Shown here: one piece after another, positions 18,789-42,826 of the stretch
How the letters are laid out: every line of letters begins with the position of its first letter
How positions within the stretch are numbered: position 1 is the first letter of the stretch
The notes under the pieces: model-generated
Seen by the model: only the letters and a program-made list of their open reading frames with translations
Database searches by the model: none
Told to the model about the DNA's origin: nothing
DNA from: Cellulophaga fucicola
GTDB taxonomy: Bacteria > Bacteroidota > Bacteroidia > Flavobacteriales > Flavobacteriaceae
Length of the DNA stretch: 64,000 nt
Direction: 5' to 3'
Assembly (NCBI RefSeq): GCF_900119145.1
Contig: NZ_FPIY01000002.1
Coordinates: 62,001-126,000, forward strand
Position numbers and translations under genes: made by a program

Positions 18789-21092
18789 CTACTTCTTGTT
18801 TACAGACATAGAGTATGGCTTAGCTTCTTTAGCTGTACCTCTACTCTTATTTGGTACATTTTTCATACTAAAATCGTATGTTGTACCATCCATAATATCA
18901 TCAAACGTAATATAGTTTTTATTGTAACTACTACCATTTTTCTGTACTGCATCAATATAAATATTCTCTTTAGTATTCTCTGGTGCATTTACTGTAAAAG
19001 TTTTACCGTTTCTTAAATGCATTTTTACACTTTTAAATAAAGGGCTACCTAAAGCATATTCACCTGTTCCTGGAGTTACAGGGTAAAAACCAGCTGCAGA
19101 AAATACGTACCAAGCAGATGTTTGTCCGTTATCCTCATCACCACACAAACCGTCTGGCGCAGAAGAATATAATTTATCCATTACATTACGTGTGTGCATT
19201 TGCGTTTTCCAAGGTTGCTCTAACCAATTATACAAATAAATTGCGTGTTGTATGGGTTGGTTACCGTGTGCATATTGCCCCATATCTGCAACTAACATTT
19301 CTGTAATTTCATGTATTTGTTGTCCGTAATAAGAATCGTTAAAAGTTGGTGCTGTTGTAAAAACATCGTCTAATCTAGAACGCATTTTGTCTACACCACC
19401 AAAGTCATCTGCTAACCCTAACGGATCGTGAAAAACACACCACGTCCAATGCCAAGCAGCACCCTCTGTAAAAGCATCTCCCCACTTATCTGGCGTGTAT
19501 GTAGTTGCCCAGGAACCATCTTTATTTTTACCACGCATAAAACCAATTTCAGGATCAAATACGTTTTTATAATTTAAAGAGCGTTGTCTAAATAACTTAA
19601 CCTCTTTTTTAGGTTTTCCTAAAGCTTCACCTAATTCTGCAATACTCCAATCTGCATATGCATATTCTAATGTACGCGCAGCATTTTCATTAACTCCAAC
19701 ATCATAAGGAACGTATCCTAAATCATTATAAAATTCAGCTCCAAAACGACCAACAGAATTAACTGGTCCTTTACTTGTTGAGTTTTTAACAACAGCCTCA
19801 TATAAGGTTTCAATATCAAAACCTCTAATACCTCTTAAATATGCATCTGTAATGTTTATGGCAGAGTTAGACCCTATCATACAATCTCTATGCCCTGGAC
19901 TTGCCCATTCTGGCAACCAACCACTTTCATTATATGTGTTTACAAGGCCTTGCATTACATTACTTAAGTAATCTGGATACATTATAGTAAAGAAAGGAAA
20001 AACAGCTCTAAATGTATCCCAAAAGCCATTATCTGTAAACATATAACCTGGTAATACTTTGCCATTGTAAGGACTGTAATGTACTATTTTATCATCTGCA
20101 TTTAGCTCATAAAACTTTCTAGGGAATAATAACACACGATACAAAGCAGTATAAAATGTTCTGTATTGTTCTACAGTACCACCATCTACTTCCATACGTC
20201 CTAATTCCTTATTCCATGCAGTTGCAGCTTTTTCTTTAGTCTGATTAAAAGTGTCTTCTCCTATTTCTCTTTTTAAGTTGATTTCTGCTTGTTCTAAACT
20301 TATAAAAGACGATGCCACTTTTGCAGTAACCTGCTCCCCGTCTTTTGTTGAAAAACTAATTGCAGCACCAACGTGGTATCCTTCTGCTTCTTTGGTGAAC
20401 GATATTTGTTCTTTACCTTCTTTTTCTTTTTTCCAAGTTAGAACCTCATCAAAATCTTTATCGAAAACTAAAACAAAGTAATTGTGAAAATTCTCTGGTA
20501 CACCACCACTATTATTTCTACAATAGCCAATAATTTTACGCTCTTCTGGTATTATTTTTACCATAGATCCTTTAAAAAAACCATCTACAAGAATATGAGA
20601 TTTTTTAGATTCTGGAAATGTAAACCTAAACTGTGCTCCTCTTTCTGTTGGTGTAATTTCTGTAGTTACATCATAATCTGCCAAGTAAGCACTGTAGTAA
20701 TGTGGTTTGCTAATTTCTGATTTATGTGAATACCAAGAAGCTCTATCGTCTTCATTAATTTTTAATTTTCCTGTTTCCGGAAACAAAGAAAAAGCAGCAT
20801 AATCATTGATCCACGGGCTTGGTTGATGCGTTTGTTTAAAACCTCTAAGTTTTAAAGCATCGTAGGTATATCCCCAGCCGTCTCCCATTTTACCAGTTTG
20901 CGGTGTCCAAAAGTTCATTCCCCAAGGCGTAGCAATTGCTGGGTAAGTATTACCATTAGATAAAGCAAACTCAGAATCTGAACCTACCAACGGGTTTACA
21001 TAATCTACATAAGATGTTGCCGATTTACTTTGAGCAAATATGGCTGTGTTTACAAGTACAATTAGGGGAAAAAGTATTTTTATTAATTTCAT
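18789..21092 (-). CDS. GH92 family alpha-mannosidase (first copy)
   Basis: A 767-residue secreted exo-alpha-mannosidase candidate. A signal peptide (ending AIFAQ) precedes a start typical of family GH92, YVDYVNPLVGSDSEFALSNGNTYPA. The N-terminal beta-sandwich is followed by the (alpha/alpha)6 catalytic part with GFWDTFRAVFPFF, EGAAWHWTW and the C-terminal GDEDNGQTSAWYVFSAAGFYPVTPG, the family's conserved acidic motif. GH92 enzymes are calcium-dependent and release mannose from N-glycans and mannans. It is the last gene of the minus-strand glycan locus, 136 bases after susD with a hairpin between. It is clearly different from the second GH92 in this window, so they may prefer different linkages. 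Confidence 0.93.
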   Translation of the reverse strand: MKLIKILFPLIVLVNTAIFAQSKSATSYVDYVNPLVGSDSEFALSNGNTYPAIATPWGMNFWTPQTGKMGDGWGYTYDALKLRGFKQTHQPSPWINDYAAFSLFPETGKLKINEDDRASWYSHKSEISKPHYYSAYLADYDVTTEITPTERGAQFRFTFPESKKSHILVDGFFKGSMVKIIPEERKIIGYCRNNSGGVPENFHNYFVLVFDKDFDEVLTWKKEKEGKEQISFTKEAEGYHVGAAISFSTKDGEQVTAKVASSFISLEQAEINLKREIGEDTFNQTKEKAATAWNKELGRMEVDGGTVEQYRTFYTALYRVLLFPRKFYELNADDKIVHYSPYNGKVLPGYMFTDNGFWDTFRAVFPFFTIMYPDYLSNVMQGLVNTYNESGWLPEWASPGHRDCMIGSNSAINITDAYLRGIRGFDIETLYEAVVKNSTSKGPVNSVGRFGAEFYNDLGYVPYDVGVNENAARTLEYAYADWSIAELGEALGKPKKEVKLFRQRSLNYKNVFDPEIGFMRGKNKDGSWATTYTPDKWGDAFTEGAAWHWTWCVFHDPLGLADDFGGVDKMRSRLDDVFTTAPTFNDSYYGQQIHEITEMLVADMGQYAHGNQPIQHAIYLYNWLEQPWKTQMHTRNVMDKLYSSAPDGLCGDEDNGQTSAWYVFSAAGFYPVTPGTGEYALGSPLFKSVKMHLRNGKTFTVNAPENTKENIYIDAVQKNGSSYNKNYITFDDIMDGTTYDFSMKNVPNKSRGTAKEAKPYSMSVNKK

Positions 21093-21201: not shown

Positions 21202-21228
21202 AAAAAACTAAATAATTACACTAAAAAA

Positions 21229-22713
21229 TTATTTATCCCACCATACTCTTGTTGTAAGTACATCTGGTCCTTGAGAAGCTATTGCCGCTGCATAGTTCTC
21301 TGGGTTATTACTTTGTTCGCTAGTTGCGTATGTAAGTCTTCTTGGTATAGTACCTCCTGTTTCATTACCTGGGTAATTAACTGGTGTTAAATTAGGAAAA
21401 CCTACTCTTCTCCAGTTTGCGAAAGCTTCATATTCATTTAAGAAAGTCGCAGCCCAATACTGTGTATTAATTTGCTCTATAGCATTAGCTGCATCAAACG
21501 GATTATTAGTTAAATATGTATCTATGTCTGCATCTGCAATAATAGCATCATCACCATAAATTGATAACATTTTCATTGCAGCTCTTACACCTGCATTGTA
21601 ATGTACCTCTGCATCACCACCAGCTAAGCCCCAACGCTCTGCTGCTTCTGCTAACATAAATTCTACCTCTGCATATGTTTGATAAAACATTGGAGCACCT
21701 TCACCTGTAATAATACTTCTATTAGGTTCTGCATACAAATCTGTATCTAATTCTCCTGTTGCGTCTTCTAATAACTGACTATCTAAACCATTAGGTAAAC
21801 CTTTAAGGTCTGCAATAGCAGTGCTACCATCACTTCTACGAGCAGCTAAAATTGGCAATCTAGGGTCGTCTTGTAAAAAATCTACAAAAGTCTTACTCAT
21901 ACGAGGATTACTATCCGCAGAAAAAGCTTCTCCATTACCATTTTTATTAATCCCTTCTGGCCCTGCAGTATGCTGTATGTAAGCAATATCTGCATTAGAC
22001 TCCATGACACCACCTGCTATAGCTTTAGTTACCCAAGCCTCAGAAGCACTAGCATCTACTTTTATTAAACGTAAACCTAATCTAAGCATCATAGAATTAC
22101 CAAATCTTTTCCATTTGCCTTGGTCTCCTTGAAACATTAAATCTGCATCTCCAAAACCAGAAGTTCCAGAACCTAAAACGGCTACAGATTCTTCTAATTC
22201 TTTTAACATATCTGCGTAAATATCACTCTGCTTGTCATATTTAGGAGTTAAGTTACCAGTAATAACGGCTTTACCAGCTTCAGAATAAGGTACATCTCCA
22301 TACAAATCTGTTAATCTGTGGTAAATAAAAACTCTCATTATTCTAGTAATAGCTTTCATTTCTTCTGGCTGCTCTTCTTCATCTAACTGTATAAGCATAT
22401 CTTCTACAGTTTTAATAGCATTACCATAAATACGATCTATCATAGAAGAAGCATATCCTTTGTTCCAAGTATACTTATCTCCTGACCAATAACCAGCTGT
22501 GGTAGACAAGTGCTGCATCATTGTAGAAGAGTAAATTAAATTTGCTCTCCAGTTTTCATATCGTTCACCAGAAGTGTACAACTGTGCTGCACTAAATTTG
22601 GTTGTAACTGGCACCTGATTTGGTGCTGTTGGGTTCACGTTTAACTCTTCAAAACCTTTATCACAGGCTCCAAGAACTAATACAAATGATAATATAAATA
22701 ATATTTTTCTCAT
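21229..22713 (-). CDS. SusD-like surface lipoprotein of the glycan locus
   Basis: A 494-residue SusD/RagB-superfamily lipoprotein with Cys17 in LGACDKG. The sequence resembles the SusD-like_2 subgroup (FEELNVNPTAPNQVP, RIMRVFIYHRLTDLYGDVPYSEAG, YAEVEFMLAEAAERWG, and INTQYWAATFLNEYEAFANWRRVGFP near the end) rather than the classical SusD of the pair at 3907. It would bind glycan on the surface and hand it to the SusC four bases upstream. Translation is probably coupled to susC. Confidence 0.92.
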   Translation of the reverse strand: MRKILFILSFVLVLGACDKGFEELNVNPTAPNQVPVTTKFSAAQLYTSGERYENWRANLIYSSTMMQHLSTTAGYWSGDKYTWNKGYASSMIDRIYGNAIKTVEDMLIQLDEEEQPEEMKAITRIMRVFIYHRLTDLYGDVPYSEAGKAVITGNLTPKYDKQSDIYADMLKELEESVAVLGSGTSGFGDADLMFQGDQGKWKRFGNSMMLRLGLRLIKVDASASEAWVTKAIAGGVMESNADIAYIQHTAGPEGINKNGNGEAFSADSNPRMSKTFVDFLQDDPRLPILAARRSDGSTAIADLKGLPNGLDSQLLEDATGELDTDLYAEPNRSIITGEGAPMFYQTYAEVEFMLAEAAERWGLAGGDAEVHYNAGVRAAMKMLSIYGDDAIIADADIDTYLTNNPFDAANAIEQINTQYWAATFLNEYEAFANWRRVGFPNLTPVNYPGNETGGTIPRRLTYATSEQSNNPENYAAAIASQGPDVLTTRVWWDK

Positions 22714-22717
22714 GTTC

Positions 22718-25700
22718 TTAAAATTTTACATTTAGACTAAAACCATAGTTTCTAGTTGATGGTACACCAAAATACTCTAAACCTTGAGAGTTACCCGAGT
22801 TGTATGTACTTTCTGGATCTACGTTATCTATACTTCTTGAAATGTAGAATAAGTTTCTAGCAATTAAAGAAACGCTTACACTATTAATAAATGTTTTTTC
22901 TAACATTGCTTCTGGTAAAGTGTAACCAATACTAAGTTCTCTAAATTTAATGTAATCTGAATCTTCTACAAACTCTTCTGCAATACGGCTAACTCTTCCG
23001 TAGTATGTTTGCAAATCTTCTGGAGCAACTGTTGTTGTAAATGGCAAACCTGTATCTCCGTCTATTCCAGAAACTTCTAATCCGTTTTCTCTTCCTTCTA
23101 AAGTTGTTTTATGTAAACCTGTACTATACCCTAATGCATTAGTTCCAGACAATAACTGTCCGCCAAATTTACCATCTATTAAAAATCCAAGATTAAAATC
23201 TTTGTATCTAAATGTGTTACTCCATCCTAAAGTTAATGGTGGCACTCCTTCTCCTAATATTTTACGTTCACCTTCTTGTGCAATTGGCACACCATCAGAA
23301 TCTATATCGTAAATAATATTACCTGTATTATCTCTATTATAAGATACACCTACGATTGAACCGTAAGGCTCACCTACAACGTGAGTAATTCTTGCATTTT
23401 GTGTTCTTGGTTCATCTAAACTAATAGGGTTTCCGTCATCATTAGTTGCAGTAACTTCACTCTTATTATAAGCTCCATTAAAGCTTGTGTTCCAGCTAAA
23501 GTCTTCTGTTTTTATTGGTGTTCCAGATATTAAAAACTCTATACCTTTATTTTCTAAGCTACCAATATTTGCAGTAGCACTATCATAACCAGAGAATACA
23601 GATGTAGAAATATTTACGATATCTTTAGTTGTCTCATTTTGGTAATAAGCAACATCTAAAGATAATCTACTACCAAAAAGTCTAAGATCTAAACCAATTT
23701 CAGTTTCATCCTTTTCCCAAGGAACTAAATTTGCGTTAGGAACTGAACTACCGTTAATTCTACCTAATGTTTGTCCTTGATGTCCTTGTCCAAAAATTTG
23801 ATATGTTGGAGACAATTGATACGCACCATCTCCACCACCAGCTACACCAGAATAACCACCTCTAATTTTTAAGAAATCTATAAAACTTGGTAGTTCTAAA
23901 ACATCAGATAAAATAATACTTGAGTTTACAGAAAAATAAAACTCATTGTTAGGTGTTGTTTTACCTGGGTAAGATAATGTAGAAAACCAATCGTTTCTAC
24001 CAGTAAATGTTAAGTAAGCCCATTTATCATAAGCAAAACCTAGAGAACCATAAATACCAGATATTTTTCTCTCTTCGTAGTCTCTACTTCTAGACTGATC
24101 TCTTAAATTAGAAATATCCTCAAAACCAGGAACAACAAAATTGTCTCCTCCTAAATATAAGTTTTCTGTTTTAACATGGTTAGAGTTTGCACCTAATAAA
24201 CCATCTATTGTAAATTTCTCTGTAATAGCTTTATTTACACCTAACATTACATCTGCATCTATCTGGGTATATCTTCCCTCAGTCTCTGTCATACCTCCTA
24301 AAACTTTATAAGCTGTTCCCCAAGGTTCTACATTAGTTGCTTTTCTTGTATAGTGATCTACACCAACACGAGTAGAAGCATATAACCAATCTAAAATATC
24401 ATAACGTAGAGAAGTAGAAGCTATAATTCTATTTTTAGAATCTTCATTATTAAAGTTATAAGCTGCGTAGTATGGGTTTTGAGAGTATATGTTTGCAGAA
24501 TATCCTCTTTCAGATCCATCTGGATTTGCACCCGGATTCATATCACGTACATCTATGTTTGGAGAAAGTAACGCTACAGAATAGTTTGCATTACCAGGAG
24601 CATCAGATAATCTTGGTCTATTATTTACGTTTTCTACTATGTATTTTACGTTAACCTGACTCGTTAATTTATCTGCTAATACTGCACTTGTGTTTAAAGA
24701 AAAAGATTTTCTGTTAATTCCTGAATTAGGAACAATATCTTCATTATCAAGATCAGATACAGAAAGTCTGTAACTCATATTTTCAGAACCACTAGTTATT
24801 GCAATTGTATTAATAAACGTAGTACCTGTTCTATAAAAATGATCTCTATTATCACCTACATAAGAATAAGGTCTTTCTACACCATCCCACTGTACAACAC
24901 TAGAGCCATCTAATTTTGGACCCCAAGAAGATAAACCTAAATCAAAAGCTTCAGACTGGTTAGATGGTACTCTACCTCTAGTTCCTTGCCCGTATGTAGT
25001 TTGAAAATCTGTTAAAGAAGTATCTACTTCATCAAAAGTAACAGAGCTACTAATTTCTACTCCTAAACCCTTTTTCTGAGAACCATTTTTTGTTGTAATA
25101 ATAATTACACCATTACCTGCCCTAGAACCATATAATGCAGCTGCTGCACCACCTTTTAAAACACTAACACTTGCTATATCATCTGGGTTAATACTAGAGA
25201 TACCATCACCACCGTCACTACCTCCGTATGTACCAGATGATCCATTGTTATCATTACCAATAGGAATACCATCTACTACGTATAGTGGCTGGTTATTACC
25301 CGTTAATGTACTATTACCACGAATAATTACTCTACTAGAACCTGATGCTCCAGTTGAGTTTTGTGTAATGTTTACACCTGCTACTTTACCTTGTAAAGAG
25401 TTAATTGCACTAACTTGTTTTACATTAGATAATTCGTCTCCACCAACTTCTGTTAATGAATATCCTAATGCTTTTGCTTCTTTTTTAATGCCTAAAGCTG
25501 TAACAACAACCTCTCCTAGTTGTTCTGCATCTTCAGCCATTGTAACATTTACAGTTGTTTTACCTGTTACAAAAGAAGTTTTAAACGTATAACCAATAGA
25601 TGTAAATTCTAAAACAGAAGATTCACCTGCAACAGTTATAGTATATTTTCCATCAAAATCTGTAGATGTACCGTTAGAAGTTCCTTTCTCTAATACATTA

Positions 25701-25825
25701 ACCCCCAAGAGAGGCATACCAGATTCATCTGTAACCGTACCGGTTACAGTCTTGCTCTGTGCTACCATACCAGTGGTAAGGAGAAACAGCACAAACAATA
25801 GTAAGTAATGAGTTTTTCTTTGCAT
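22718..25825 (-). CDS. SusC/RagA-family TonB-linked transporter of the glycan locus
   Basis: A 1035-residue outer-membrane importer. Signal peptide (ending GMVAQ), carboxypeptidase-like domain (about 25-100, NGTSTDFDGKY), SusC segment (GEVVVTALGIKKEAKALGYS), plug (about 120-245, SLQGKVAGVNI, VIIRGNSTL, PLYVVDGIPIG, AGNGVIIITTK) and barrel ending NYGFSLNVKF. The ALGIKKE variant is common in SusC proteins paired with SusD-like_2 partners, as here. It is separated from the upstream GH92 by 261 bases in which no TAnnTTTG box is found, so it may be read from the upstream genes or from a weaker promoter. Confidence 0.94.
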   Translation of the reverse strand: MQRKTHYLLLFVLFLLTTGMVAQSKTVTGTVTDESGMPLLGVNVLEKGTSNGTSTDFDGKYTITVAGESSVLEFTSIGYTFKTSFVTGKTTVNVTMAEDAEQLGEVVVTALGIKKEAKALGYSLTEVGGDELSNVKQVSAINSLQGKVAGVNITQNSTGASGSSRVIIRGNSTLTGNNQPLYVVDGIPIGNDNNGSSGTYGGSDGGDGISSINPDDIASVSVLKGGAAAALYGSRAGNGVIIITTKNGSQKKGLGVEISSSVTFDEVDTSLTDFQTTYGQGTRGRVPSNQSEAFDLGLSSWGPKLDGSSVVQWDGVERPYSYVGDNRDHFYRTGTTFINTIAITSGSENMSYRLSVSDLDNEDIVPNSGINRKSFSLNTSAVLADKLTSQVNVKYIVENVNNRPRLSDAPGNANYSVALLSPNIDVRDMNPGANPDGSERGYSANIYSQNPYYAAYNFNNEDSKNRIIASTSLRYDILDWLYASTRVGVDHYTRKATNVEPWGTAYKVLGGMTETEGRYTQIDADVMLGVNKAITEKFTIDGLLGANSNHVKTENLYLGGDNFVVPGFEDISNLRDQSRSRDYEERKISGIYGSLGFAYDKWAYLTFTGRNDWFSTLSYPGKTTPNNEFYFSVNSSIILSDVLELPSFIDFLKIRGGYSGVAGGGDGAYQLSPTYQIFGQGHQGQTLGRINGSSVPNANLVPWEKDETEIGLDLRLFGSRLSLDVAYYQNETTKDIVNISTSVFSGYDSATANIGSLENKGIEFLISGTPIKTEDFSWNTSFNGAYNKSEVTATNDDGNPISLDEPRTQNARITHVVGEPYGSIVGVSYNRDNTGNIIYDIDSDGVPIAQEGERKILGEGVPPLTLGWSNTFRYKDFNLGFLIDGKFGGQLLSGTNALGYSTGLHKTTLEGRENGLEVSGIDGDTGLPFTTTVAPEDLQTYYGRVSRIAEEFVEDSDYIKFRELSIGYTLPEAMLEKTFINSVSVSLIARNLFYISRSIDNVDPESTYNSGNSQGLEYFGVPSTRNYGFSLNVKF

Positions 25826-26086
25826 ACTTAATTGAGTTTAATTGTTAAGTTAGTTTTAGTTAATTAATGATTAAATTTTACGTATTAATGTTAAAAGCAG
25901 AAATTAATTCGACTAACAACTTTGTGGAAAAGCTAAGCGACATTAAAAAGAGGTACAAAAAAGTAATAAGTGTTAACCATTTGCTTAATACTTGCTATGT
26001 TATGTTAAATAAAACAAACACAAAACCTTACAACTACTAGATAATTAGAAGGTTACAAAGGAAAAAACTTGTTAAAAAAAGTACTC

Positions 26087-28294
26087 TTAATCCATCTTAA
26101 TTTCTAAAACAGCACCGTTTAATAAGTCTTGATGATTAATAAAATAGCCTTGAACAACTTTATTATTTAATTTAATAGACTTTATTTTTCCGTCTAAATC
26201 TCCTGTTCTTTTTATAACCAACTTTTTATTTTTGTAATAGGTAGTATCTAAATGAATGGTCATAGATGTAAACCTTGGTGTAGAAATAGTATAAACTGGT
26301 GTAGTCGGACTAACAGGGTATATACCCATCATTGCATATACCAACCAAGCAGACATTGTACCTGTATCATCATTACCTGGTAAACCTGCTGGTGTATTTG
26401 TAAAATATGTTTTTATTAATTGCTGTACACGTTGTTGCGTTTTCCACTCGTCTCCTTTACTATAGTTGTATAAAAAAGGATATGCTATATCTGGCTCGTT
26501 AGCCATATCAAACTGGTTATTGTCAAAAATATAATCTAAATGAGAAACAAATTGTTTTTTACCTCCCATTAATTTCATTAATCCCTTAATGTCATGCGGT
26601 ACCATAAAAGCATATTGCCAAGCATTACCCTCTATATACCCAACATTCTTCTCAAAATTAGCTCCCTTGTATGGATCAAAGGGTGTGTACCAACTACCAT
26701 CACTATTTTTAGGTCGCATTAGTTTAAGTTTTTTATCAAACAATTTTCTGTAAGATAAAGACTGATTATAAAACTTTTTATAATCGTCTTTTTTACCCAA
26801 TGTTTTTGCTAATTGCGCTATTGCAAAGTCAGATATATTATATTCTTCGGTTGAAGAAACAGGTCCTTCCCCGCCTCCATCTACACTTAAATATCCATTT
26901 TCCCAATATTCTTTTATTCCTGGTCGTAGCGGATTATTATTTAGCTGAGTTGCTCCTTTTACCATTGCAGCATATGCCTCATCAACATTAAAATCTGTAA
27001 TACCGCGTAAATATGTATCTGCAATAACTACAGGTGCAGGGTCACCAACCATTGTAAAAGTTTCGGTTGAATTTAGCTCCCATTTAGGCAACCAACCATT
27101 CTCTTTATACATAGACAACATACTATTAACCATATTAGATTGTTGTGCTGGGTACAAGGTACTCATTAACGGATGGTAATTTCTGTAGGTATCCCAAAGT
27201 GAAAAGACAGTGTATCTAGTCCCCTTTGTATTCCCTATTTTACCCGTTGCAATTTCTGGATAGTCTCCATTAAAATCGTTTAGCGTATTAGGGTGTATTT
27301 GTGTATGGTACAATGCTGTGTAAAATATTGTTTTATCATCGGTTGTGCCTCCTTCTACTTCTACCGTAGATAAAGTCTTGTTCCAAACTGCTTTTGTCTC
27401 TGTATATATATCTTCAAAACTTTTAGTAGCTGTTTCTTGTTCTAAATTTTCTCTAGCGTTTTCTATACTAACATAAGAAACTCCTATTTTAACCTCAACA
27501 CTCGTTTTTTGCTTAAAATTGTAACGCATATATGCACCAATACTATCGCCAACAACCTCTTTGGTGTATCCTTTCATCAATCTAGTCTTACCATTATAAG
27601 TCATCCATTGTGCTTCTACACCATTGTATTTCCTAGGTTTTTTCCAAGCACCAAATTCTTCCGCCGGTTTAGAGAATTTAGCAACAAAATATACCGGATA
27701 AGCGTGTTCTGGGCTATTGTAACAAAAAGAGCCAACTGTACGCATCCCCTCAATCTCTGTATTAGAAACTACCTTTACCATAGCACCTTGCTCATTGGTT
27801 AAACCCAATCCTAGGTTTACAAGTATGTTAGATTCTCCTGCAGGAAAACTATATCTAGAAACACCTACTCTTGTTGTTGCAGTAAGCTCTGTTTTTATTT
27901 TATATTTTGATAAGTTAACCGAATAATAACCTGCACTAGAAACCTCATCTGTGTATGTGGTTCCATATTCCATATGGTTTGTTTTTAGATTTCCAGTTGT
28001 AGGCATTGTTAGTATTACACCTAAATCTGGACAACCAACACCACTTAAGTTAACGTGAGTAAAACCTGTTAAAAAGGTATTTTGTTTTACATATGGGTTA
28101 GACAACCAACCAGCATCTTTCTCTACAGCTACATTAAAAGGAGATACACTTGCCATACCTCTTGGTGCAATAGCTCCTGGATTTGTTGCTCCAAAATTAG
28201 AAGTGCCAATAAACGGATTTACATAATCTACAGGCTTTTGCGCATAAACAAATGCAACTGCAACTAAAAAAATACTTAAAACTTTAAATTTCAT
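26087..28294 (-). CDS. GH92 family alpha-mannosidase (second copy)
   Basis: A 735-residue secreted enzyme of the GH92 family. Signal peptide (ending AFVYAQ), then PVDYVNPFIGTSNFGATNPGA, the canonical GH92 N-terminus. Further hallmarks are FSLWDTYRNYHPL, EGNAWQYAFMVPHD and LPGNDDTGTMSAWLVYAMMGIYPVSP, which carries the catalytic-base region. The last motif is closer to the well-studied mannosidases than that of the copy at 18789. It lies ten bases after the GH20 gene, so the two are co-transcribed. Likely product is mannose released from high-mannose N-glycan or mannan chains. Confidence 0.94.
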   Translation of the reverse strand: MKFKVLSIFLVAVAFVYAQKPVDYVNPFIGTSNFGATNPGAIAPRGMASVSPFNVAVEKDAGWLSNPYVKQNTFLTGFTHVNLSGVGCPDLGVILTMPTTGNLKTNHMEYGTTYTDEVSSAGYYSVNLSKYKIKTELTATTRVGVSRYSFPAGESNILVNLGLGLTNEQGAMVKVVSNTEIEGMRTVGSFCYNSPEHAYPVYFVAKFSKPAEEFGAWKKPRKYNGVEAQWMTYNGKTRLMKGYTKEVVGDSIGAYMRYNFKQKTSVEVKIGVSYVSIENARENLEQETATKSFEDIYTETKAVWNKTLSTVEVEGGTTDDKTIFYTALYHTQIHPNTLNDFNGDYPEIATGKIGNTKGTRYTVFSLWDTYRNYHPLMSTLYPAQQSNMVNSMLSMYKENGWLPKWELNSTETFTMVGDPAPVVIADTYLRGITDFNVDEAYAAMVKGATQLNNNPLRPGIKEYWENGYLSVDGGGEGPVSSTEEYNISDFAIAQLAKTLGKKDDYKKFYNQSLSYRKLFDKKLKLMRPKNSDGSWYTPFDPYKGANFEKNVGYIEGNAWQYAFMVPHDIKGLMKLMGGKKQFVSHLDYIFDNNQFDMANEPDIAYPFLYNYSKGDEWKTQQRVQQLIKTYFTNTPAGLPGNDDTGTMSAWLVYAMMGIYPVSPTTPVYTISTPRFTSMTIHLDTTYYKNKKLVIKRTGDLDGKIKSIKLNNKVVQGYFINHQDLLNGAVLEIKMD

Positions 28295-30629: not shown

Positions 30630-30641
30630 AAATTGTAGCAA

Positions 30642-32814: not shown

Positions 32815-33063
32815 AATCTTATATTATTGGTAACTTTATTTTAACCTTATTATAATTTAGTTGTTAATTAAATTATTTTTTATACTTTTCACGAGTCCTA
32901 TTCTGCATATAGTACAAAGCAGACATATCTAGTTTTTAGACTGTACAACAACTCTTTATAAATATTCTTTTTTTTATTTATACTGAAAATAATTTTAGAC
33001 CAATAACGACAGGCAAATGCTAAACGATTAAATAGTAGAGACAAAAACAACGAAACCAAACCA

Positions 33064-34149: not shown

Positions 34150-34862
34150 TTAAATTACGAACCATAATTGTAGATGATGAGCCGCTTGCTATTAATGTTT
34201 TAAAAAATTATGTTTCTCAAGTACAAGAATTAGAATTAATAGAAACCTTCTCTAATGCTGTTGCTGCAACCACTTTTGTTCAGAAAAACACAGTAGATAT
34301 TATTTTTTTAGATATTAATATGCCCATTTTAGATGGTTTAGATTTTTTAAAAAATCTACAATCTGTTCCAATGGTTGTTATTACTACTGCTCACGAAGAA
34401 TATGCATTAACAAGTTACGAGCTACAAGCTATAGACTACCTAGTTAAACCAATTCCGTTCCCTAGATTTTTACAATCTGTACAACGTATTATCAAACTAA
34501 AACAAAGCAGTACAACTCCTGTTAGCGCAAGTAATACTGCAGAAAACCCTAGTATTTTTATAAAAATTGATAAAAAGAAATTACAAAAAATATTTTTAGA
34601 AGATATTTTGGTAATTGAAAGTCTAAAAGATTACATCCGTATAAAAACAAAATCAGATAAATACATCATTCATAGAACCTTAAGTAGTTTTACAGACGAA
34701 TTACCCAGCGATAAATTTATAAGAATACATAGATCTTACACAATATCTATTTGTAAAGTAGATACTATAGAAGGTAACAGCCTAGAAATTGGTGGTATAC
34801 GTTATACTATTGGTCGTAGTTATATTAATGATGTAAAAGAAACCCTATTAGGAAACGCATAA
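34146..34862 (+). CDS. LytR/AlgR-type response regulator (LytTR)
   Basis: A 238-residue partner of the LytS-type kinase. Receiver domain (1-120) with Asp10/Asp11, phosphoacceptor Asp56 in FLDINMPILDG, and Lys in YLVKPIPF. A LytTR DNA-binding domain follows (about 137-238) with DILVIESLKDYIRIKT, FIRIHRSYTIS and a terminal GRSY segment. LytTR proteins bind spaced direct repeats; no clear pair was found by eye in 32815-33063 or 34863-35016. The downstream gene starts 154 bases later. Confidence 0.93.
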   Translation: MIKLRTIIVDDEPLAINVLKNYVSQVQELELIETFSNAVAATTFVQKNTVDIIFLDINMPILDGLDFLKNLQSVPMVVITTAHEEYALTSYELQAIDYLVKPIPFPRFLQSVQRIIKLKQSSTTPVSASNTAENPSIFIKIDKKKLQKIFLEDILVIESLKDYIRIKTKSDKYIIHRTLSSFTDELPSDKFIRIHRSYTISICKVDTIEGNSLEIGGIRYTIGRSYINDVKETLLGNA

Positions 34863-35016
34863 TATTAAAACTGCATTTTCTTACTTAAAAAAATAACAGA
34901 AGCTTAGTTTTTTAATCATATTAAGCTATTATCATTTGTTATTGGTCGATATTTATTGTGAATCACTTTTATAATAACAATATTTAGTACCTATATAAAT
35001 GCTTATTTTTTAAGGT

Positions 35017-37380
35017 ATGATAAAAAAGAACTGGTTTCTATTAGCTAAAAAATCTCTGCTAAAAATAGCATTCGCTATTTTATCTACCATTAGTATAATA
35101 AGCTGCAAAACAGATAACAAATATTCTGAAGTTGCAATTGCAGAAAATGGTGAAATTGCTGTTCCTGATAAAATTGATTTTACATTCCATGTAAAACCAA
35201 TAATATCAGACAGATGTTTTATATGTCACGGACCAGATAAAAATGCTGTAGAAGGTAACTTTTCTATGGTATCTCCAGAAGAAGCTTATAAAGCTTTAGG
35301 TGAAAAAATGGATCATTTTGCAATAGTTCCTGGAAATGTAGAAAAAAGCGGAATGATAAACCGTATTTATTCTGAAGATCCTAGTGCTATTATGCCACCA
35401 CCAGAATCTAACTTAATTCTTACAGATTATGAAAAAGCTATACTAAAAAAATGGGTAGAGCAAGGTGCAGAATATAAAGATCATTGGGCTTTTATACCAC
35501 CTGTAGAACAAACTGTTCCAGAGAAAAAAGAAGATTGGGGCAACAATGAAATAGATAATTTTATTTATCAAAAACTAGAAGAGAACAACTTAAAGCCTTC
35601 TGAAAAAGCATCTAAAGAAAAATTAATTAGAAGAGTCTATTTCGATTTAACTGGCTTACCACCATCGCCAAAAGCAATACATCAATTTTTAAAAGACTCA
35701 TCTTCTAATGCATATGAAAAAGTAATAGACAATTTACTTTCTTCTCAAGATTATGCAGAAAATATGGCAGCCGAATGGATGGATATTGCTCGCTATGCAG
35801 ATACTCACGGTTACCAAGACGATTTTGAACGTACAATGTGGCCTTGGAGAGACTGGGTTATTCACGCCTTTAAAAACAATATACCGTATAACGAGTTTGT
35901 AACAGACCAACTAGCCGGAGATTTAATACCAAATGCATCTTTAGAACAAATTTTAGCTACGGGTTTTAATCGCAACCATAAGATTACTTATGAAGGCGGT
36001 GTAATTCCTGAAGAATATAGAGTTGAGTATGTAGAAGATCGTATACAAACCTTTGGCACAGCCTTTTTAGGATTAACCTTAGAGTGTGCACGTTGTCACG
36101 ATCACAAGTACGATCCAATAAGTCAAAAAGCACACTTCTCTTTCTTTAGCTTTTTTAATAATATAGATGAAGACGGACTAGTTAATGGCGGTGCTGGTGT
36201 AATTCCTAAACCATACATAACTATTACAGAAAAAGAGAAAAGTGATGTTCTAAATTTTGTTCAATTAAACAAATCTGAAGCTAAAGAAATTCCTGTAATG
36301 GTAATGCAAGAAATGGATACTCCAAGACAAGCATATATACTTAATAGAGGAGCTTACGATCAGCACGGAGAAAAAGTATATCCAGATACACCTGCATCTA
36401 TATTAAGTTATCCTGAAGAATTTGAAAAAAACCGATTAGGACTTGCTAAATGGTTGTTTCATGAAGACAACCCATTAACAGCTAGAGTTGCTGTAAATCG
36501 TTTTTGGCAACGTATGTTTGGCACAGGTATAGTGGCCAGTTCTTATGATTTTGGTAATCAAGGGGCATTGCCTTCTCATCCTGAATTATTAGACTATTTA
36601 GCTATTAAATTTAGAAAAAGTGGCTGGGACACTAAAGATATTCTTAAATCTATAGCAATGTCGCAAACCTACCAACAGAGTACAGTTATATCAAAAGAAA
36701 ATTTAGAAAAAGACCCGCCTAACAAATGGCTTGCTCGTGCACCAAGGTTACGTTTATCTGCAGAAATGATAAGAGATCAAGCACTTTTTGTTAGTGGATT
36801 ATTAAATACAGAGGTTGGTGGCCCAAGTGTAAAACCTTACCAACCAGATGGTATTTGGGAAGAAACAACTGGCGGCGGTGGCGGTAGTACATCTTCTTAC
36901 ATTTTAAGTGAAGGCAAGGATTTGTACAGAAAAAGTTTATATACATTCTGGAAAAGAACCGTACCACCACCTAGTATGATAACTTTTGATGCTGCATCTA
37001 GAGATTTATGTTCTGTAAAAAGACAAGAAACAAATACTCCGCTACAGGCACTGGTGCTTTTAAACGATCCGCAACTTATAGAAGCAGCAAGAGTATTAGC
37101 AAGTAATGCAATTACAACTAACGAAGAGTTAGCAAAACAAATAATCTACATTTTTGAATCTGCAACTTCTAGGTTACCAGACGAAACCGAAATTACAGAG
37201 CTTAGCAACCATTACAACGATATGCTTAACAGAATAAGTAGTAATGAAATTAAGGCAGACGAATACTTATCTATTGGTTCGTACAAGGTAGATACTACAA
37301 TTTCATCAGATAAGCTAGCTGCATTGTCTTTAACAGCGCATACCATTTTAAATCTAGATGAAACTATAACAAAAGGATAG
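35017..37380 (+). CDS. PSCyt1-DUF1549-DUF1553 cytochrome-like lipoprotein
   Basis: A 787-residue lipoprotein (Cys30 in SIISCKTDN) with the domain set best known from planctomycetes. A PSCyt1 domain (about 50-150) carries a haem c motif, Cys67-x-x-Cys70-His71 (CFICHGPDKN). DUF1549 follows (about 175-380) with GLPPSPKAIHQFL, MDIARYADTHGYQDD and a second CXXCH, Cys357-Cys360-His361 (CARCHDHKYDP). DUF1553 covers about 465-725 (RVAVNRFWQRMFGTGIV, RLSAEMIRDQAL, RQETNTPLQALVLLNDP). The family's biochemical role is not established. It starts 154 bases after the LytTR gene and ends two bases before its usual partner, a DUF1501 gene. Confidence 0.92.
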   Translation: MIKKNWFLLAKKSLLKIAFAILSTISIISCKTDNKYSEVAIAENGEIAVPDKIDFTFHVKPIISDRCFICHGPDKNAVEGNFSMVSPEEAYKALGEKMDHFAIVPGNVEKSGMINRIYSEDPSAIMPPPESNLILTDYEKAILKKWVEQGAEYKDHWAFIPPVEQTVPEKKEDWGNNEIDNFIYQKLEENNLKPSEKASKEKLIRRVYFDLTGLPPSPKAIHQFLKDSSSNAYEKVIDNLLSSQDYAENMAAEWMDIARYADTHGYQDDFERTMWPWRDWVIHAFKNNIPYNEFVTDQLAGDLIPNASLEQILATGFNRNHKITYEGGVIPEEYRVEYVEDRIQTFGTAFLGLTLECARCHDHKYDPISQKAHFSFFSFFNNIDEDGLVNGGAGVIPKPYITITEKEKSDVLNFVQLNKSEAKEIPVMVMQEMDTPRQAYILNRGAYDQHGEKVYPDTPASILSYPEEFEKNRLGLAKWLFHEDNPLTARVAVNRFWQRMFGTGIVASSYDFGNQGALPSHPELLDYLAIKFRKSGWDTKDILKSIAMSQTYQQSTVISKENLEKDPPNKWLARAPRLRLSAEMIRDQALFVSGLLNTEVGGPSVKPYQPDGIWEETTGGGGGSTSSYILSEGKDLYRKSLYTFWKRTVPPPSMITFDAASRDLCSVKRQETNTPLQALVLLNDPQLIEAARVLASNAITTNEELAKQIIYIFESATSRLPDETEITELSNHYNDMLNRISSNEIKADEYLSIGSYKVDTTISSDKLAALSLTAHTILNLDETITKG

Positions 37381-37382: not shown

Positions 37383-38876
37383 ATGAGTGAGAAGAAAATT
37401 TTAGAAGAGCGGTCGTTAATTTTAAATCGTAGAGCTTTTTTAGGAAAAACGGCTTTAGGTCTTGGCGGTACTGCTCTAGCATCCTTAATGGGCTATAGCT
37501 ATTTTAATAAGAGTCCAAACGGAGTACTTTCTCCTTCTAACACAATAGCAGGCTCTAAAGGTGCATTAAACACATTGCATCATCCTGCAAAAGTTAAAAG
37601 AGTTATTTACTTGTTTCAGAGTGGTGGCCCTTCTCAGTTAGAATTGTTTGACTATAAACCTCTTTTAAATTTACGTAGAGGTGAAGATTTACCAGAATCT
37701 ATTAGAAACGGTCAACGCTTAACAGGAATGACCTCTGGTCAAGATAAATTTCCTTTGGTGGGTTCTCAGTTCGATTTTAAACAATACGGAAAAAATGGCA
37801 CTTGGATTAGCGATTTGTTACCCTATACCGCAAAAATGGTAGATGACTTATGTATTGTAAAATCGATGCATACTGAAGCTATAAACCACGATCCTGCAGT
37901 TACTTTTTTTCAAACAGGATCTCAACAACCAGGCAGACCTAGTATAGGTTCTTGGTTAAGTTATGGTATTGGTAGTGAAAACGATAATTTACCTGCTTTT
38001 ACTGTTCTATTATCAAGAGGAACAGGCAGACCACAAGGTCAGCCACTATATACAAGATTATGGGGTAACGGATTTTTAAATTCATTACACCAAGGTGTTC
38101 AATTTAGAGCAGCAAAAGACCCTGTTTTATATTTAAACGATCCTAAAGGAACTACAAAAGACACTAAACGTGCCGTTTTAGATAAATTAGCTTCTTTAAA
38201 TGATAAGCAATACACAGAATTTGGAGATCCAGAAATACAAAGTAGAATTGCACAATATGAGATGGCATACAGAATGCAAACTTCTGTTCCAGATGTTATG
38301 AATATAGATAACGAACCAGATTATATTTATAAAATGTATGGTTCAGATGCTAAAATACCGGGCACCTTTGCTGCAAACTGCCTACTAGCCAGAAAATTAG
38401 CAGAAAAAGATGTTCGTTTTATACAACTTTACCATATGGGTTGGGACCAGCATGATAATTTACCAGGTGCAATTAAAAAACAAGCCAAAGACGTAGACCA
38501 GGCATCTGCAGCTCTTGTCGCAGATTTAAAACAACGTGGTTTATTAGAAGATACACTTATTGTTTGGGGTGGCGAGTTTGGAAGAACCAACTACTCTCAA
38601 GGTATATTAACAGAAGATAACTACGGAAGAGATCACCATCCAAGAAGTTTTACAATGTGGATGGCCGGCGGCGGTATTAAACCAGGAATTAGCTACGGAG
38701 AAACAGATGACTTTGGATATAACATTGTAAAGAATCCTGTACATGTACACGATTTTCAGGCAACAATGATGCATCTCCTGGGCATAGACCATAAAAAACT
38801 AACCTACAAATACCAAGGACGTAGATTTAGATTAACAGATGTAGAAGGCCATGTTATAAAAGATATTTTATCTTAA
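37383..38876 (+). CDS. Tat-exported DUF1501 protein
   Basis: A 497-residue protein with a twin-arginine signal (Arg16-Arg17 in NRRAFLGKTALGLGGTALAS), so it is exported folded. The body belongs to DUF1501, a family in the alkaline phosphatase/sulfatase fold: YLFQSGGPSQLELFDYKP, MHTEAINHDPAVTFFQTG, RFIQLYHMGWDQHDNLP, VWGGEFGRTNYSQG, GRDHHPRSFTMWMAGGGIKPG and the C-terminal VHDFQATMMHLLGID. His and Asp residues in these motifs suggest a metal centre. No sulfatase C/S-x-P-x-R motif is visible. DUF1501 genes almost always accompany DUF1549/1553 genes, as here; the reaction is unknown. Confidence 0.93.
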   Translation: MSEKKILEERSLILNRRAFLGKTALGLGGTALASLMGYSYFNKSPNGVLSPSNTIAGSKGALNTLHHPAKVKRVIYLFQSGGPSQLELFDYKPLLNLRRGEDLPESIRNGQRLTGMTSGQDKFPLVGSQFDFKQYGKNGTWISDLLPYTAKMVDDLCIVKSMHTEAINHDPAVTFFQTGSQQPGRPSIGSWLSYGIGSENDNLPAFTVLLSRGTGRPQGQPLYTRLWGNGFLNSLHQGVQFRAAKDPVLYLNDPKGTTKDTKRAVLDKLASLNDKQYTEFGDPEIQSRIAQYEMAYRMQTSVPDVMNIDNEPDYIYKMYGSDAKIPGTFAANCLLARKLAEKDVRFIQLYHMGWDQHDNLPGAIKKQAKDVDQASAALVADLKQRGLLEDTLIVWGGEFGRTNYSQGILTEDNYGRDHHPRSFTMWMAGGGIKPGISYGETDDFGYNIVKNPVHVHDFQATMMHLLGIDHKKLTYKYQGRRFRLTDVEGHVIKDILS

Positions 38877-38906: not shown

Positions 38907-39941
38907 ATGAACAGAAGAAACTTTATACAAAGTACTAGTTTAGCCAGCGCTGGACTACTTTTTTGTACTCCAGCACTACACGCTATGCATCCTTATAAAG
39001 ATGCAATAATTGGTCACGGAAATTTTAAATACAAAATAGACCTAAATTGGGGAGCATTAAATGCTAATTTTTATCCCGTAGAAAATTGTCATGAAATGGT
39101 ACAAGATTCTAAAGGCAGAATTATTCTACTAACAGACCATATTAAAAACAATGTTATTGTTTACGATAAAAATGGGAACTTAATTGAGGTTTGGGGTACC
39201 GAATTTCCTGGTGCACACGGACTAACTTTAAACGTAGAAAACGGAGAAGACTTCTTATACATTGCAGATAACAATAGGCATGAGGTAATTAAAACAACTA
39301 TAGATGGTAAGGTTGTTCAAATTTTTAAGTTTCCTGAAACTGCTGGAAAGTATAAGAACAAAGAAGAATATATACCTACAGAAACCGCTGTTGCTGCTAA
39401 CGGAGATGTTTACATTACAGACGGCTATGGAGCACAATACATTCTACATTACAATGAAAAAGGACATTTACTAAACGTTTTTGGCGGTAAAGGTAAAGAA
39501 GATCATTTATTTGGTAATGCACATGGTATTACTATAGATACACGAGAAAATGAACCTACACTACTTATTACAGACCGTATGGAAAATAAGTTTAAACGTT
39601 TTAATATGGAGGGCAAATATATAAGCACCATACATTTACCGGGAGCTTTTGTATGCAGACCTGTAATACACAAAGAAAATATTTATACTGCTACTATTTG
39701 GTCTGGAGAAGGAGCTATGGATACAGGTTTTATATCAATCTTAAATAAAGAAAATAAATTGGTTTCTGCCCCAGGAGGTACAGAGCCAATTTATAGCAAA
39801 GACGGCATTTTGCAACCTATGCAACAGGCTTTAAAAGTTTTTAAGAATCCGCATGACGTTTGTATAGATACAGATGAAAATCTTTATGTAGCGCAATGGA
39901 GCTCTGGAAAAACATATCCTATTAAACTAACTAGAGTATAA
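38907..39941 (+). CDS. Tat-exported NHL-type beta-propeller protein
   Basis: A 344-residue protein with a twin-arginine-like signal (Arg3-Arg4 in NRRNFIQSTSLASAGLL), ending near ALHA. The rest is made of propeller-blade segments of the NHL/six-bladed type: GNLIEVWGTEFPGAHGLTLN, FLYIADNNRHEVIKTT, EKGHLLNVFGGKGKEDHLFGNAHG, LLITDRMENKFKRF and PHDVCIDTDENLYVAQW. It resembles peptidylglycine amidating lyase-like propellers, but an enzyme function cannot be claimed. It follows DUF1501 by 30 bases in the same operon and may be a scaffold or a lyase of the complex. Confidence 0.88.
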   Translation: MNRRNFIQSTSLASAGLLFCTPALHAMHPYKDAIIGHGNFKYKIDLNWGALNANFYPVENCHEMVQDSKGRIILLTDHIKNNVIVYDKNGNLIEVWGTEFPGAHGLTLNVENGEDFLYIADNNRHEVIKTTIDGKVVQIFKFPETAGKYKNKEEYIPTETAVAANGDVYITDGYGAQYILHYNEKGHLLNVFGGKGKEDHLFGNAHGITIDTRENEPTLLITDRMENKFKRFNMEGKYISTIHLPGAFVCRPVIHKENIYTATIWSGEGAMDTGFISILNKENKLVSAPGGTEPIYSKDGILQPMQQALKVFKNPHDVCIDTDENLYVAQWSSGKTYPIKLTRV

Positions 39942-39959: not shown

Positions 39960-40766
39960 ATGAAAAACATAGTATACATAATGGTTATAGCATTGTTTTT
40001 TTCTTGTACAGAAAGTAAAGAAACAAGTTTTGCCCAAACCAAAGACATCAAGGTAGTTTCCCCAAATTTTACCGTAGATTCTATATTTTTTAAAAACAAT
40101 GCTACCATTAACTTTAGAACTGCAATAGGCAATACAGAGCTAAGGTATACTACAGATACAAGTAACATTACTAACAACTCTAAACTTATTACAACTCCTT
40201 TAAAGGTAAATAAGTCTTCATTTTTAAAAGTAAAGGCTTATCATCCAGATTTTAAAGAAAGTGAAACTATTAAACTTCAATTAAAAAAAGTAAAACATTC
40301 TATTTCTAATGCCACGGTAACAATTAATCCTATGCCTAGTGATAGCTACCCTGCCAATGGCCCTAGTAGTCTTACCGATTTAAAAAGTGGCACCATTCAA
40401 TTTAAAAAAAACAATACGTGGCTAGGTTTTAATACTAAAGAAGTAACTATTAAGGTAGATTTAGCAAAAGAACTTACACTTTCTACTATTACACTACATA
40501 CGCTTACAGCACAAGGAGATTGGATATTTGCTCCTGAAGAGATATCTATTTACAGCGACTCTAAGTTAATTGGTAATTACAATAGTAAAAATGCTAGTTC
40601 GCAAACAAAAGAAAGTACAATCATAGATTTTATAGAAGTTCCTGTTACAACTAACACTTATTCTTCTTTTGCTATTACAATTAAAAGTTTAGACAAAATT
40701 CCTGCTTGGCATCCAGGAGCCAACAGCATACCTTGGTTTTTTATTGACGAAATTATTGTAGAATAA
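39960..40766 (+). CDS. Lipoprotein with chitobiase-C-like and discoidin-like modules
   Basis: A 268-residue lipoprotein (Cys16 in ALFFSCTES). Residues about 38-115 resemble a chitobiase/hexosaminidase C-terminal domain (LRYTTDTSNITNNSK, PLKVNKSSFLKVKAYHPDFKES). Residues about 135-268 form a discoidin-like region (SSLTDLKSGTIQFKKNNTW, TITLHTLTAQGDWIFAPEEISIYS, IPWFFIDEIIVE). There is no catalytic domain: it is the C-terminal tail of the GH20 enzyme of the neighbouring locus reproduced as a stand-alone protein. It probably anchors or targets the cluster's proteins to a HexNAc-type glycan. Its stop overlaps the next start (TAATG). Confidence 0.8.
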   Translation: MKNIVYIMVIALFFSCTESKETSFAQTKDIKVVSPNFTVDSIFFKNNATINFRTAIGNTELRYTTDTSNITNNSKLITTPLKVNKSSFLKVKAYHPDFKESETIKLQLKKVKHSISNATVTINPMPSDSYPANGPSSLTDLKSGTIQFKKNNTWLGFNTKEVTIKVDLAKELTLSTITLHTLTAQGDWIFAPEEISIYSDSKLIGNYNSKNASSQTKESTIIDFIEVPVTTNTYSSFAITIKSLDKIPAWHPGANSIPWFFIDEIIVE

Positions 40767-42826
40767 TGCAGATACACCTTTTAACAATTCAGATAGGAAA
40801 TTTACACCCATTGTTTGTACACTTACCAATTGGGATACTAACCTTTGCTTTTATTTTAGAGATTTATTTAAAAATTAAAAAGTCCAAACAAACAGATATT
40901 GCTAAATTAGCTTTAGGTTTAACTGCAATTACAGCATTATTTTCTTTAGGTACAGGCTGGCTTTTAGGAGACAATGGTGGTTATGACGAGCTTGCTTTAT
41001 CTAGACATAAGTGGATGGCAGTTGGGCTAACCGTTTGTAGTATTTTACTTTTTGTTTTAAGAACACTACCTCATAATTGGTGTAAAAAAGTATATGTTCC
41101 TTTATTTTTAGTTACACTTGCTTTGTTAGGTATTACAGGCCACCTAGGAGGGAATATGACTCACGGAGATGATTTTCTTTTTAAGGAACATACCTTAAGT
41201 GAAGTTGCCATAGTAGACATAAATAAGGCTAATGCATATAGAGACATTATACAGCCTATTCTAGACTCTAAATGCGTTAGTTGTCACAATGCAAATAAAG
41301 CCAAAGGAGAGCTGTTACTTACCTCTAAGGCATCTATTATAGCTGGCGGAGAAAACGGTAGCATTTTAGACTCTATTAACGGAGAAGCTGCCTCTCTATT
41401 AACAAGATTACATTTGCCTTTAGATGATAAATTACATATGCCACCTAAAGGAAAAGTACAACTTACCGCAGAAGAAATAAGTTTATTAAAATGGTGGATA
41501 AAAAATAACAATTGTTTTGATTGTACTGTGGAAGAAACAGATGCTAGTCCGCAAACAAAATCTATTTTAAAAACACTAGAAAAAGACACCACAGCATTAG
41601 GAATATTAACTGCAACAGCAGAAATTGTACCCTTAGAATGGATTTCTAAAATGAATGCAAATGGTTATAGTGTTATACCTTTAGCTGAAAAGAGTCCGTT
41701 ACTAATTGTAACATTAGCCAGTAAAAAAAATATAACTTCTAAAGATTTTAAATACTTAAACGAATACGCAGAAAACATTGTTGAACTAAATTTAGCATAC
41801 ACCAATTTTAATGATGATTTAACTAGTGCTTTACCTAAATTCAAAAACCTTTTAAAATTACAATTACAAAAAACTAAAATTACTTCTGCTGCTTTAAAAG
41901 ATATTGAAAAGTTAAGCTTATTAGAATCTTTAAATTTATATGGCACTGCTGTTAAGAGTGATGCATTTGAACACATTAAAAAGTTAAAGAATCTAAAAAA
42001 ACTATACTTGTACCAAACAGCTATAACTAAAACAGAATTAGCTAGTTTAAAAAAGGAAAAACCAAACCTTATTACAAAGCATTTAGCAGATACACTTTTT
42101 AATAATGCTGTTCTAAACAACCCATACATAGTAGATGCATCAGACTTTTTTAATGATAAACTAGATTTACAATTAGAACACGTTTTTAAAAGTGCTACTA
42201 TATTTTATACAACAGATGGTACAGAACCAGATACTACTGCAACAAAATACACCTCACCTATTCGTATTAAAGAATCTAAAACAGTTAAGTTTTTTGCTTA
42301 CAAAAAAGATTGGGTCCAAAGTGATGTAGTAACTGCTAATATTAAAAAAAGTGGATTGCTTTTAGATTCTATTTGGTTACAAAAAAAACCTCATGAAAAT
42401 TATATAGGAGATGGTGCAAACACCTTAAAAGACTTAAAAAGGGGAACTATAAATTTTCAAGATGGATCTTGGCTTGCTTATCAAGGAGAAAACCTAAATA
42501 CAACTATTGTTTTTAATGAACCTAAAAAAATAAGCACTGTTTCTATTGGCTCATTAACAAAACCTACCAGCTGGATTTTTCATCCAATAGGCTATAAAGT
42601 TTGGGTCTCTAACAACAACAAAGACTTTAAGTTACTTAAATCTATAAAATTACCTATTCCAAAAAAGTATGTAGATGATGCAATTGCCTTCTACGATATT
42701 ACTTTTGAAGAAACCGAGGCTAAGTTTGTAAAAATTGAAGTTAAAAACATAACAAAAAACCCAGTTTGGCATCCAAATCCTGGAGGTCAAAGCTGGGTTT
42801 TTGTAGATGAAATTCTTATTAATTAA
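40766..42826 (+). CDS. Membrane protein with PSCyt1 haem motif, leucine-rich repeats and C-terminal binding modules
   Basis: A 686-residue multidomain protein. Residues about 1-130 hold four membrane spans (HPLFVHLPIGILTFAFILEIY, DUF2231-like). A PSCyt1-like domain (about 155-260) has Cys170-x-x-Cys173-His174 (CVSCHNANKAKGELLL) and HMPPKGKVQLTAEEI. Leucine-rich repeats lie at about 325-440 (NLLKLQLQKTKIT, LLESLNLYGTAVK, NLKKLYLYQTAIT). A chitobiase-C-like domain (about 460-530, YTTDGTEPDTTATKY) and a discoidin-like domain ending WVFVDEILIN close the protein. A haem domain fused to LRRs recalls planctomycete proteins. It probably spans the inner membrane and receives electrons; this is inference. 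Confidence 0.85.
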   Translation: MQIHLLTIQIGNLHPLFVHLPIGILTFAFILEIYLKIKKSKQTDIAKLALGLTAITALFSLGTGWLLGDNGGYDELALSRHKWMAVGLTVCSILLFVLRTLPHNWCKKVYVPLFLVTLALLGITGHLGGNMTHGDDFLFKEHTLSEVAIVDINKANAYRDIIQPILDSKCVSCHNANKAKGELLLTSKASIIAGGENGSILDSINGEAASLLTRLHLPLDDKLHMPPKGKVQLTAEEISLLKWWIKNNNCFDCTVEETDASPQTKSILKTLEKDTTALGILTATAEIVPLEWISKMNANGYSVIPLAEKSPLLIVTLASKKNITSKDFKYLNEYAENIVELNLAYTNFNDDLTSALPKFKNLLKLQLQKTKITSAALKDIEKLSLLESLNLYGTAVKSDAFEHIKKLKNLKKLYLYQTAITKTELASLKKEKPNLITKHLADTLFNNAVLNNPYIVDASDFFNDKLDLQLEHVFKSATIFYTTDGTEPDTTATKYTSPIRIKESKTVKFFAYKKDWVQSDVVTANIKKSGLLLDSIWLQKKPHENYIGDGANTLKDLKRGTINFQDGSWLAYQGENLNTTIVFNEPKKISTVSIGSLTKPTSWIFHPIGYKVWVSNNNKDFKLLKSIKLPIPKKYVDDAIAFYDITFEETEAKFVKIEVKNITKNPVWHPNPGGQSWVFVDEILIN

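Follow-up and report, generated by a model that had tools for sequence, protein, structure and literature searches.

A probable N-glycan utilisation locus in Cellulophaga fucicola linked by position and a shared DNA element to a haem/DUF1501 operon

The window analysed here, a 64,000-nucleotide stretch of the 3.9-Mb genome of Cellulophaga fucicola (contig NZ_FPIY01000002.1), raises the question of why a set of glycosidase genes and a set of haem-protein genes should diverge from a single LytS/LytR pair. At positions 18789–42826, a minus-strand set (CBM9, GHL10, GH20, GH92, SusC, SusD and GH92) and a plus-strand haem set, beginning with PSD1 (a PSCyt1-DUF1549-DUF1553 protein) and DUF1501, diverge at this pair, an arrangement that an earlier note on this DNA had described and that Pfam and the coordinates of the open reading frames confirm. 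The same note had held that the two halves are one system around LytS/LytR, and this is borne out by conserved co-location in relatives and by a promoter element confined in this genome to the locus. On that basis one system under one switch is well supported, and the two halves very probably form one regulon. The reading as a whole, in which an N-glycan utilisation locus is regulated together with a redox accessory of the periplasm whose chemistry is given below as the most likely, has in our estimate a probability of roughly 60%.

The shared element was found by comparing the 240 10-mers of the gap between the CBM9 gene and lytS with the gaps upstream of PSD1 in the window and in the relatives G032 and G021, where only one, GACCAATAAC, was matched (≤ 1 mismatch). 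At the same tolerance, it starts 51–93 bp before lytS in each of six clade-A loci having lytS (the window, L090, L091, L093, L095 and G032). The extended bipartite element, GACYAAYAAC-N11-GCYNAAY, has three matches (≤ 1 mismatch) in the whole genome, all within this locus, and a reversed-pattern control has none. Exact copies lie on the plus strand in the divergent CBM9/lytS gap (32998–33025) and on the minus strand 70 bp before the PSD1 start (34920–34947), and a copy with one mismatch lies on the plus strand 86 bp before the susC start (25911–25938), a predicted LytR site. Judging from position, LytR is presumably the protein acting at this element, and a SusCD locus thereby gains a candidate regulon under LytS/LytR. 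In 12 relatives, the element matched 34 times against 14 for the control (≤ 1 mismatch), and 14 of the 34 matches precede lytS or the first glycan gene, susC or PSD1; the in-system share was 2/2 in G006, 3/5 in G021, 3/6 in G032 and 2/4 in each of G135, G142 and G075, with a fourth match nearby in G021, at an unidentified gene. The genomes of 12 further loci gave 31 matches against 22, and 12 of the 30 fetched matches were in-system (G149 1/1, G150 3/3, G151 2/4, G153 3/3, G154 2/3 and G160 1/1). When the promoters of 79 short-form PSD1 genes were scanned with ≤ 3 mismatches over positions −150 to +90 relative to the start, the element was present in the window's orientation in 12, and neither the opposite orientation nor the control gave any match. 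Eleven of these 12 genes are in the tree described below, all in the window's clade or in the interleaved group, and the remaining one, L092, has a short contig and for this reason does not figure in the tree. Finally, G075 has its PSD1 block on another contig than its lytSR-CBM9-GHL10-GH20-SusCD locus, with the element at both; its retention by these unlinked parts is our best evidence for a functional link as opposed to a neighbourhood effect.

Conservation of the pairing was followed in 149 sampled genomes of the family, of which 33 have PSD1. The short form (open frames of 768–814 amino acids) was taken at 25 places in 22 genomes, and GH92 and GH20 genes were located in those 22. GH92, GH20, CBM9 and GHL10 genes surround the PSD1 block in G006, G021 and G115, all in one run on one strand (in G006 without the propeller and Fn3 protein). 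In G032 the block and the glycan genes point away from each other at LytS/LytR, as in the window; a LytS/LytR pair is also found at one end in G021 and G115, and not in the G006 stretch seen. Short-form PSD1 lay within 12 kb of GH92 at 5 of the 25 places against 0.33 expected from random placement (P about 1e-5, in a test that ignores shared ancestry). At the level of whole genomes, any PSD1 was present in 7/20 genomes bearing a GHL10 gene at ≥ 54% identity vs 26/129 others (Fisher p = 0.15). The earlier note had proposed this comparison of neighbourhoods and would have counted an absence of co-occurrence against its claim; co-occurrence was found by position, and it is weak by genome. A scan with a DUF1501 alignment extended the linked loci, among the best 80 of at least 586 confirmed loci, to several other taxa, including Arenibacter algicola, Allomuricauda, Gaetbulibacter, Phaeodactylibacter and Saprospiraceae, as well as to a Calditrichia bin with GH20 only. 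In a tree of 82 PSD1 plus DUF1501 rows, 17 of them strictly linked and from 16 loci, the divergent and interleaved layouts form two separate groups, and the linked label needs at least eight changes vs a shuffle average of 15.5, with gain and loss indistinguishable. Either module can be found on its own, and the PSD1 block is for that reason an optional accessory. Such separate occurrence would suit chance neighbours, that is, two unrelated operons around one intergenic region, but the excess of linkage, its spread over several lines of the tree and the locus-specific element retained by the unlinked parts in G075 make this explanation very improbable.

The gene content of the locus was called with Pfam, and the coordinates agree with the list of open reading frames. 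Leftwards from the divergent gap, on the minus strand, lie a CBM9_1 domain protein (31753–32814; 44.5 bits), a GHL10-type glycosidase-like lipoprotein (30642–31766; 41.3 bits), for which a sequence search for PDB relatives returned none, a GH20 beta-hexosaminidase lipoprotein with an Fn3_assoc tail (28305–30641; 415.3 bits; 562 bits to 6q63), the alpha-mannosidase GH92b (26087–28294; 540.2 bits; 393.6 bits to 6f8z), a SusC-like TonB-dependent transporter (22718–25825; Plug and CarbopepD_reg_2), a SusD-like lipoprotein (21229–22713; SusD-like_2, 276.6 bits) and a second alpha-mannosidase, GH92a (18789–21092; 554.5 bits), whose best solved relative is 2wvx, a putative alpha-1,2-mannosidase (1036 bits). 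On the plus strand, the LytS-type sensor histidine kinase (33064–34149; His_kinase, 86 bits) and the LytTR response regulator LytR (34146–34862; Response_reg and LytTR) are followed by PSD1 (35017–37380), DUF1501 (37383–38876; 523.1 bits), an NHL/DUF5128 beta-propeller (38907–39941), an Fn3_assoc lipoprotein (39960–40766), which in a pairwise comparison has a C-terminal domain in common with the GH20 protein, and a protein composed of a DUF2231 membrane domain, a PSCyt1 cytochrome, a weak LRR match (E = 0.00087, below the cut-off) and an Fn3_assoc tail (40766–42826). Packing is tight, with gaps of −14 to 10 bp across CBM9-GHL10-GH20-GH92b and of −1 to 30 bp within the PSD1 operon. The adjacent SusC/SusD pair with two linked GH92 genes and GH20 gives the locus the gene content of a polysaccharide utilisation locus, and housekeeping-type genes (PrmA-like, triosephosphate isomerase, pterin-binding) form its right flank.

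As to the substrate, protein N-glycans are a more probable target than mannan or chitin. The alpha-mannosidases and hexosaminidase expected of an N-glycan locus are present in the window, and 2wvx and 6q63 are, we take it, N-glycan enzymes of Bacteroides thetaiotaomicron. Partner genes scanned in G021 and/or G115 encode GH18, GH130, an SSF symporter, Asparaginase_2, GH29 and GH3, and G032 also has PNGase F; the nearest match of the relatives' Asparaginase_2 protein is glycosylasparaginase (421 bits), and that of their GH130 is UHGB_MP (510 bits). Judged from these partner genes, N-glycans are the likely substrate among the glycans listed in the earlier note. A PNGase F search of the C. fucicola genome gave no matches, and its controls were likewise matchless. 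In the Bacteroides N-glycan loci, the GH18 gene BT3987 and three GH92 genes form one operon, according to the part of the source consulted (PMC10154615). The present system resembles these loci in its several GH92 genes, SusC/SusD and GH20, and in the GH18 and GH130 of relatives, and differs from them in having LytS/LytR as the linked regulator, a co-regulated haem/DUF1501 operon and, in some relatives, PNGase F or glycosylasparaginase.

The proteins of the haem operon offer some indication of what it might do. PSD1 unites the PSCyt1, PSCyt2 and PSD1 domains with CxxCH motifs at residues 67 and 357 in one protein, as recognised by Pfam, motifs and a model, and adjoins DUF1501, a partner of the PSCyt-PSD genes of planctomycetes and Verrucomicrobia; a further CxxCH motif stands at residue 170 of the DUF2231 protein. 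By eye, PSD1, GH20, GHL10, SusD and the Fn3 protein have lipoprotein-like starts, and DUF1501 and the propeller have twin-arginine (Tat) starts with RR motifs, so that of the haem-linked, Tat-exported enzyme that had been proposed, Tat export fits DUF1501 and the propeller and does not fit PSD1. The DUF1501 model appears to share the fold of the alkaline phosphatase superfamily by fold search, in agreement with the fold type that we had assumed beforehand. Unlike the sulfatases of that superfamily, which also includes NPP and PafA, DUF1501 has no C/S-x-P-x-R at the corresponding place: this formylglycine signature is absent from 49 of 50 aligned DUF1501 rows and occurs in the remaining one at residue 255, an unrelated place, whereas it is present in 11/11 neighbouring sulfatases in an alignment that leaves out G075. 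Aligned by eye, DUF1501 has N168-H169-x-P-A in its position, and E398-F399-G replaces the D-N-G of sulfatases. The PSD1 model gave no fold match other than its cytochrome domain. Comparison of PSD1 with DUF1800 by hhalign was weak (1.4%, E = 0.036), and the DUF1800 model weakly matches DUF1553 frames at G045:C8:338627–338881 (5.6e-4) and G034:C1:960728–961045 (8.3e-4), so DUF1800 and DUF1553, both partners of DUF1501, may be related to each other.

In the mechanism that we propose, LytS would sense the glycan or a breakdown signal, and LytR would act at the bipartite element before three transcription units, namely the CBM9-GHL10-GH20-GH92 set, susCD and the PSD1-DUF1501-propeller-lipoprotein-DUF2231 operon. 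The hydrolases and SusCD would release and import the glycan, and the accessory operon would most likely work in the periplasm, where PSD1, with its two c-type haems, and DUF1501 may modify those residues of the glycan on which the hydrolases cannot act, and electrons would reach the respiratory chain by way of the DUF2231 cytochrome. Gene content, conserved linkage and the shared element are observed directly and the fold type of DUF1501 is modelled; we infer the chemistry, the electron path, the substrate of this strain and the binding of the element by LytR. Redox action on the sugar is put forward tentatively, as somewhat short of an even chance, and the earlier note's view of the haem set as containing an enzyme that works on the same polymer is likewise a proposal. 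The pair of PSD1 and DUF1501 is now tied by position and element to a flavobacterial N-glycan system, which suggests a likely job for an uncharacterised group, and since strains with the system include Arenibacter algicola E3M18 and Gaetbulibacter sp. 4G1, the question is directly testable.

Several observations pull the other way. Both exact sites helped to define the element, and the susC site is the only independent prediction. No in-system match (≤ 1 mismatch) was seen in G115, G102, G024, G139, G013 and G030, none was recognised in the other six of the 12 further genomes, and outside the system the element is about as frequent as the control across the 24 genomes. Some linked loci are without a good site before PSD1; the one in L108 has five mismatches. 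Within 18789–42826, Pfam finds no glycan-freeing enzyme (PNGase, endo-acting GH18 or GH85, or GlcNAc-Asn cutter), and because the locus itself is without such enzymes, the N-glycan assignment for the window leans on relatives; the one GH130-family gene of this genome sits on another contig, and chitinases are the nearest matches of the G021 GH18. The Foldseek TM-scores of DUF1501 are low (~ 0.3) with large root-mean-square deviations, and our searches gave no known enzyme relative of PSD1. PSD1 is absent from 13 of the 20 GHL10 genomes, making the block dispensable, and tested glycan genes lie within 10 kb in 22 of 112 PSD1-DUF1501 rows and not in the other 90, a count that missed G032, which was taken into the tree. 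These last two figures would also fit an accessory operon that shares the switch and not the substrate, a periplasmic electron-transfer or protective system used during growth on glycoprotein that leaves the glycan untouched. We consider this unlikely, as in G006, G021 and G115 the block is interleaved with glycosidases on one strand and several of its other surroundings also have to do with glycans (sulfatase, FGE, GH109-type and MocA oxidoreductases, and GH29).

The accessory operon could instead be specific to decorated N-glycans: PSD1 would remove or oxidise a cap (an O-methyl group, for instance), a neighbouring sulfatase and/or DUF1501 would remove an ester, and GH92 could then proceed. 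Outside its core genes, the block has a sulfatase cluster as its most frequent neighbour (19/107 loci or regions, one member identified by Pfam). A sulfatase gene lies just 3′ of the DUF2231 gene in L089, L091 and G075, and one lies 5′ of PSD1 in L096 and L098. Mannose-rich N-glycans are described in microalgae in the part consulted of PMC10877868, which cites a paper (Mocsai 2019) whose title calls Chlorella N-glycans oligomannosidic and highly methylated. However, Pfam finds no sulfatase in the window's locus, a BLAST search with one sulfatase as query gave no match in the stretches of G021, G115, G006 and G032, no demethylase relative of PSD1 was found, and DUF1501 has no sulfatase signature, so we regard this alternative, too, as improbable. 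Equally speculative is the most specific form of our own redox proposal, in which PSD1-DUF1501 would be a periplasmic enzyme of a new kind, with two haems, that unmasks or cleaves decorated mannose (O-methylated or sulfated, for instance) on algal N-glycans by oxidation and passes electrons through the DUF2231 cytochrome to respiration. If it were true, planctomycetes and Verrucomicrobia would have in their PSD1-DUF1501 pairs an oxidative partner for glycosidases.

To our knowledge, and by our searches, PSD1/DUF1501 pairs have no established function, and in the literature searched we found for them neither an N-glycan link in Bacteroidota nor a shared promoter element. For Verrucomicrobia, He et al. 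2017 (PMC5615132) suggest from context, with sulfatases nearby, a role of PSCyt genes in carbohydrate metabolism, with no defined substrate given in the part consulted. PSCyt and PSD domains in a single gene and nearby sulfatases are features that those genes, as described there, have in common with ours, which differ in occurring in Bacteroidota and in being linked with a defined glycan locus and its promoter element, with a DUF2231 cytochrome, propeller and Fn3 lipoprotein in addition. DUF1501-DUF1800 pairs adjoin bacterial chitin synthases, as far as the excerpt of PMC5122149 goes, and likewise combine, in the setting of a polysaccharide, a DUF1501 protein bearing a Tat signal with a partner protein; here, by contrast, the haem-bearing PSD1 replaces DUF1800 (homology of DUF1800 and DUF1553 being unproven), and the context is breakdown, not synthesis.

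PSD1-DUF1501 was also seen in other surroundings. A second cluster in the same genome (G000 C14:37437–46263; L082, L084), with a PSD1 of 1084 amino acids, DUF1501, propeller and cytochrome, has at least two GH29 alpha-fucosidase genes in its vicinity, and for this reason the module appears to be reused beside another glycan locus. The sulfatase genes beside the block are at L089:15419–16876, L091:13570–15009 and G075:C10:528405–529856 (downstream) and at L096:6005–7402 and L098:3837–5234 (upstream). A common neighbourhood, mostly in Cryomorphaceae/Flavobacteriales bins (L119, L120, L123, L128, L133, L140, L146 and G004:C11), contains GH109-type and MocA oxidoreductases, an SSF symporter and esterases of the GDSL or other types, as judged from a scan of one representative per cluster. 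Two or more tandem PSD1-DUF1501 sets are present in L098, L115, L117, L121 and L124. Elsewhere in the window, the left flank of the locus includes a DUF5916 protein with a CBM9_1 domain (12656–15085), and two tandem tRNA-Glu genes with an identical anticodon lie at 59428–59653.

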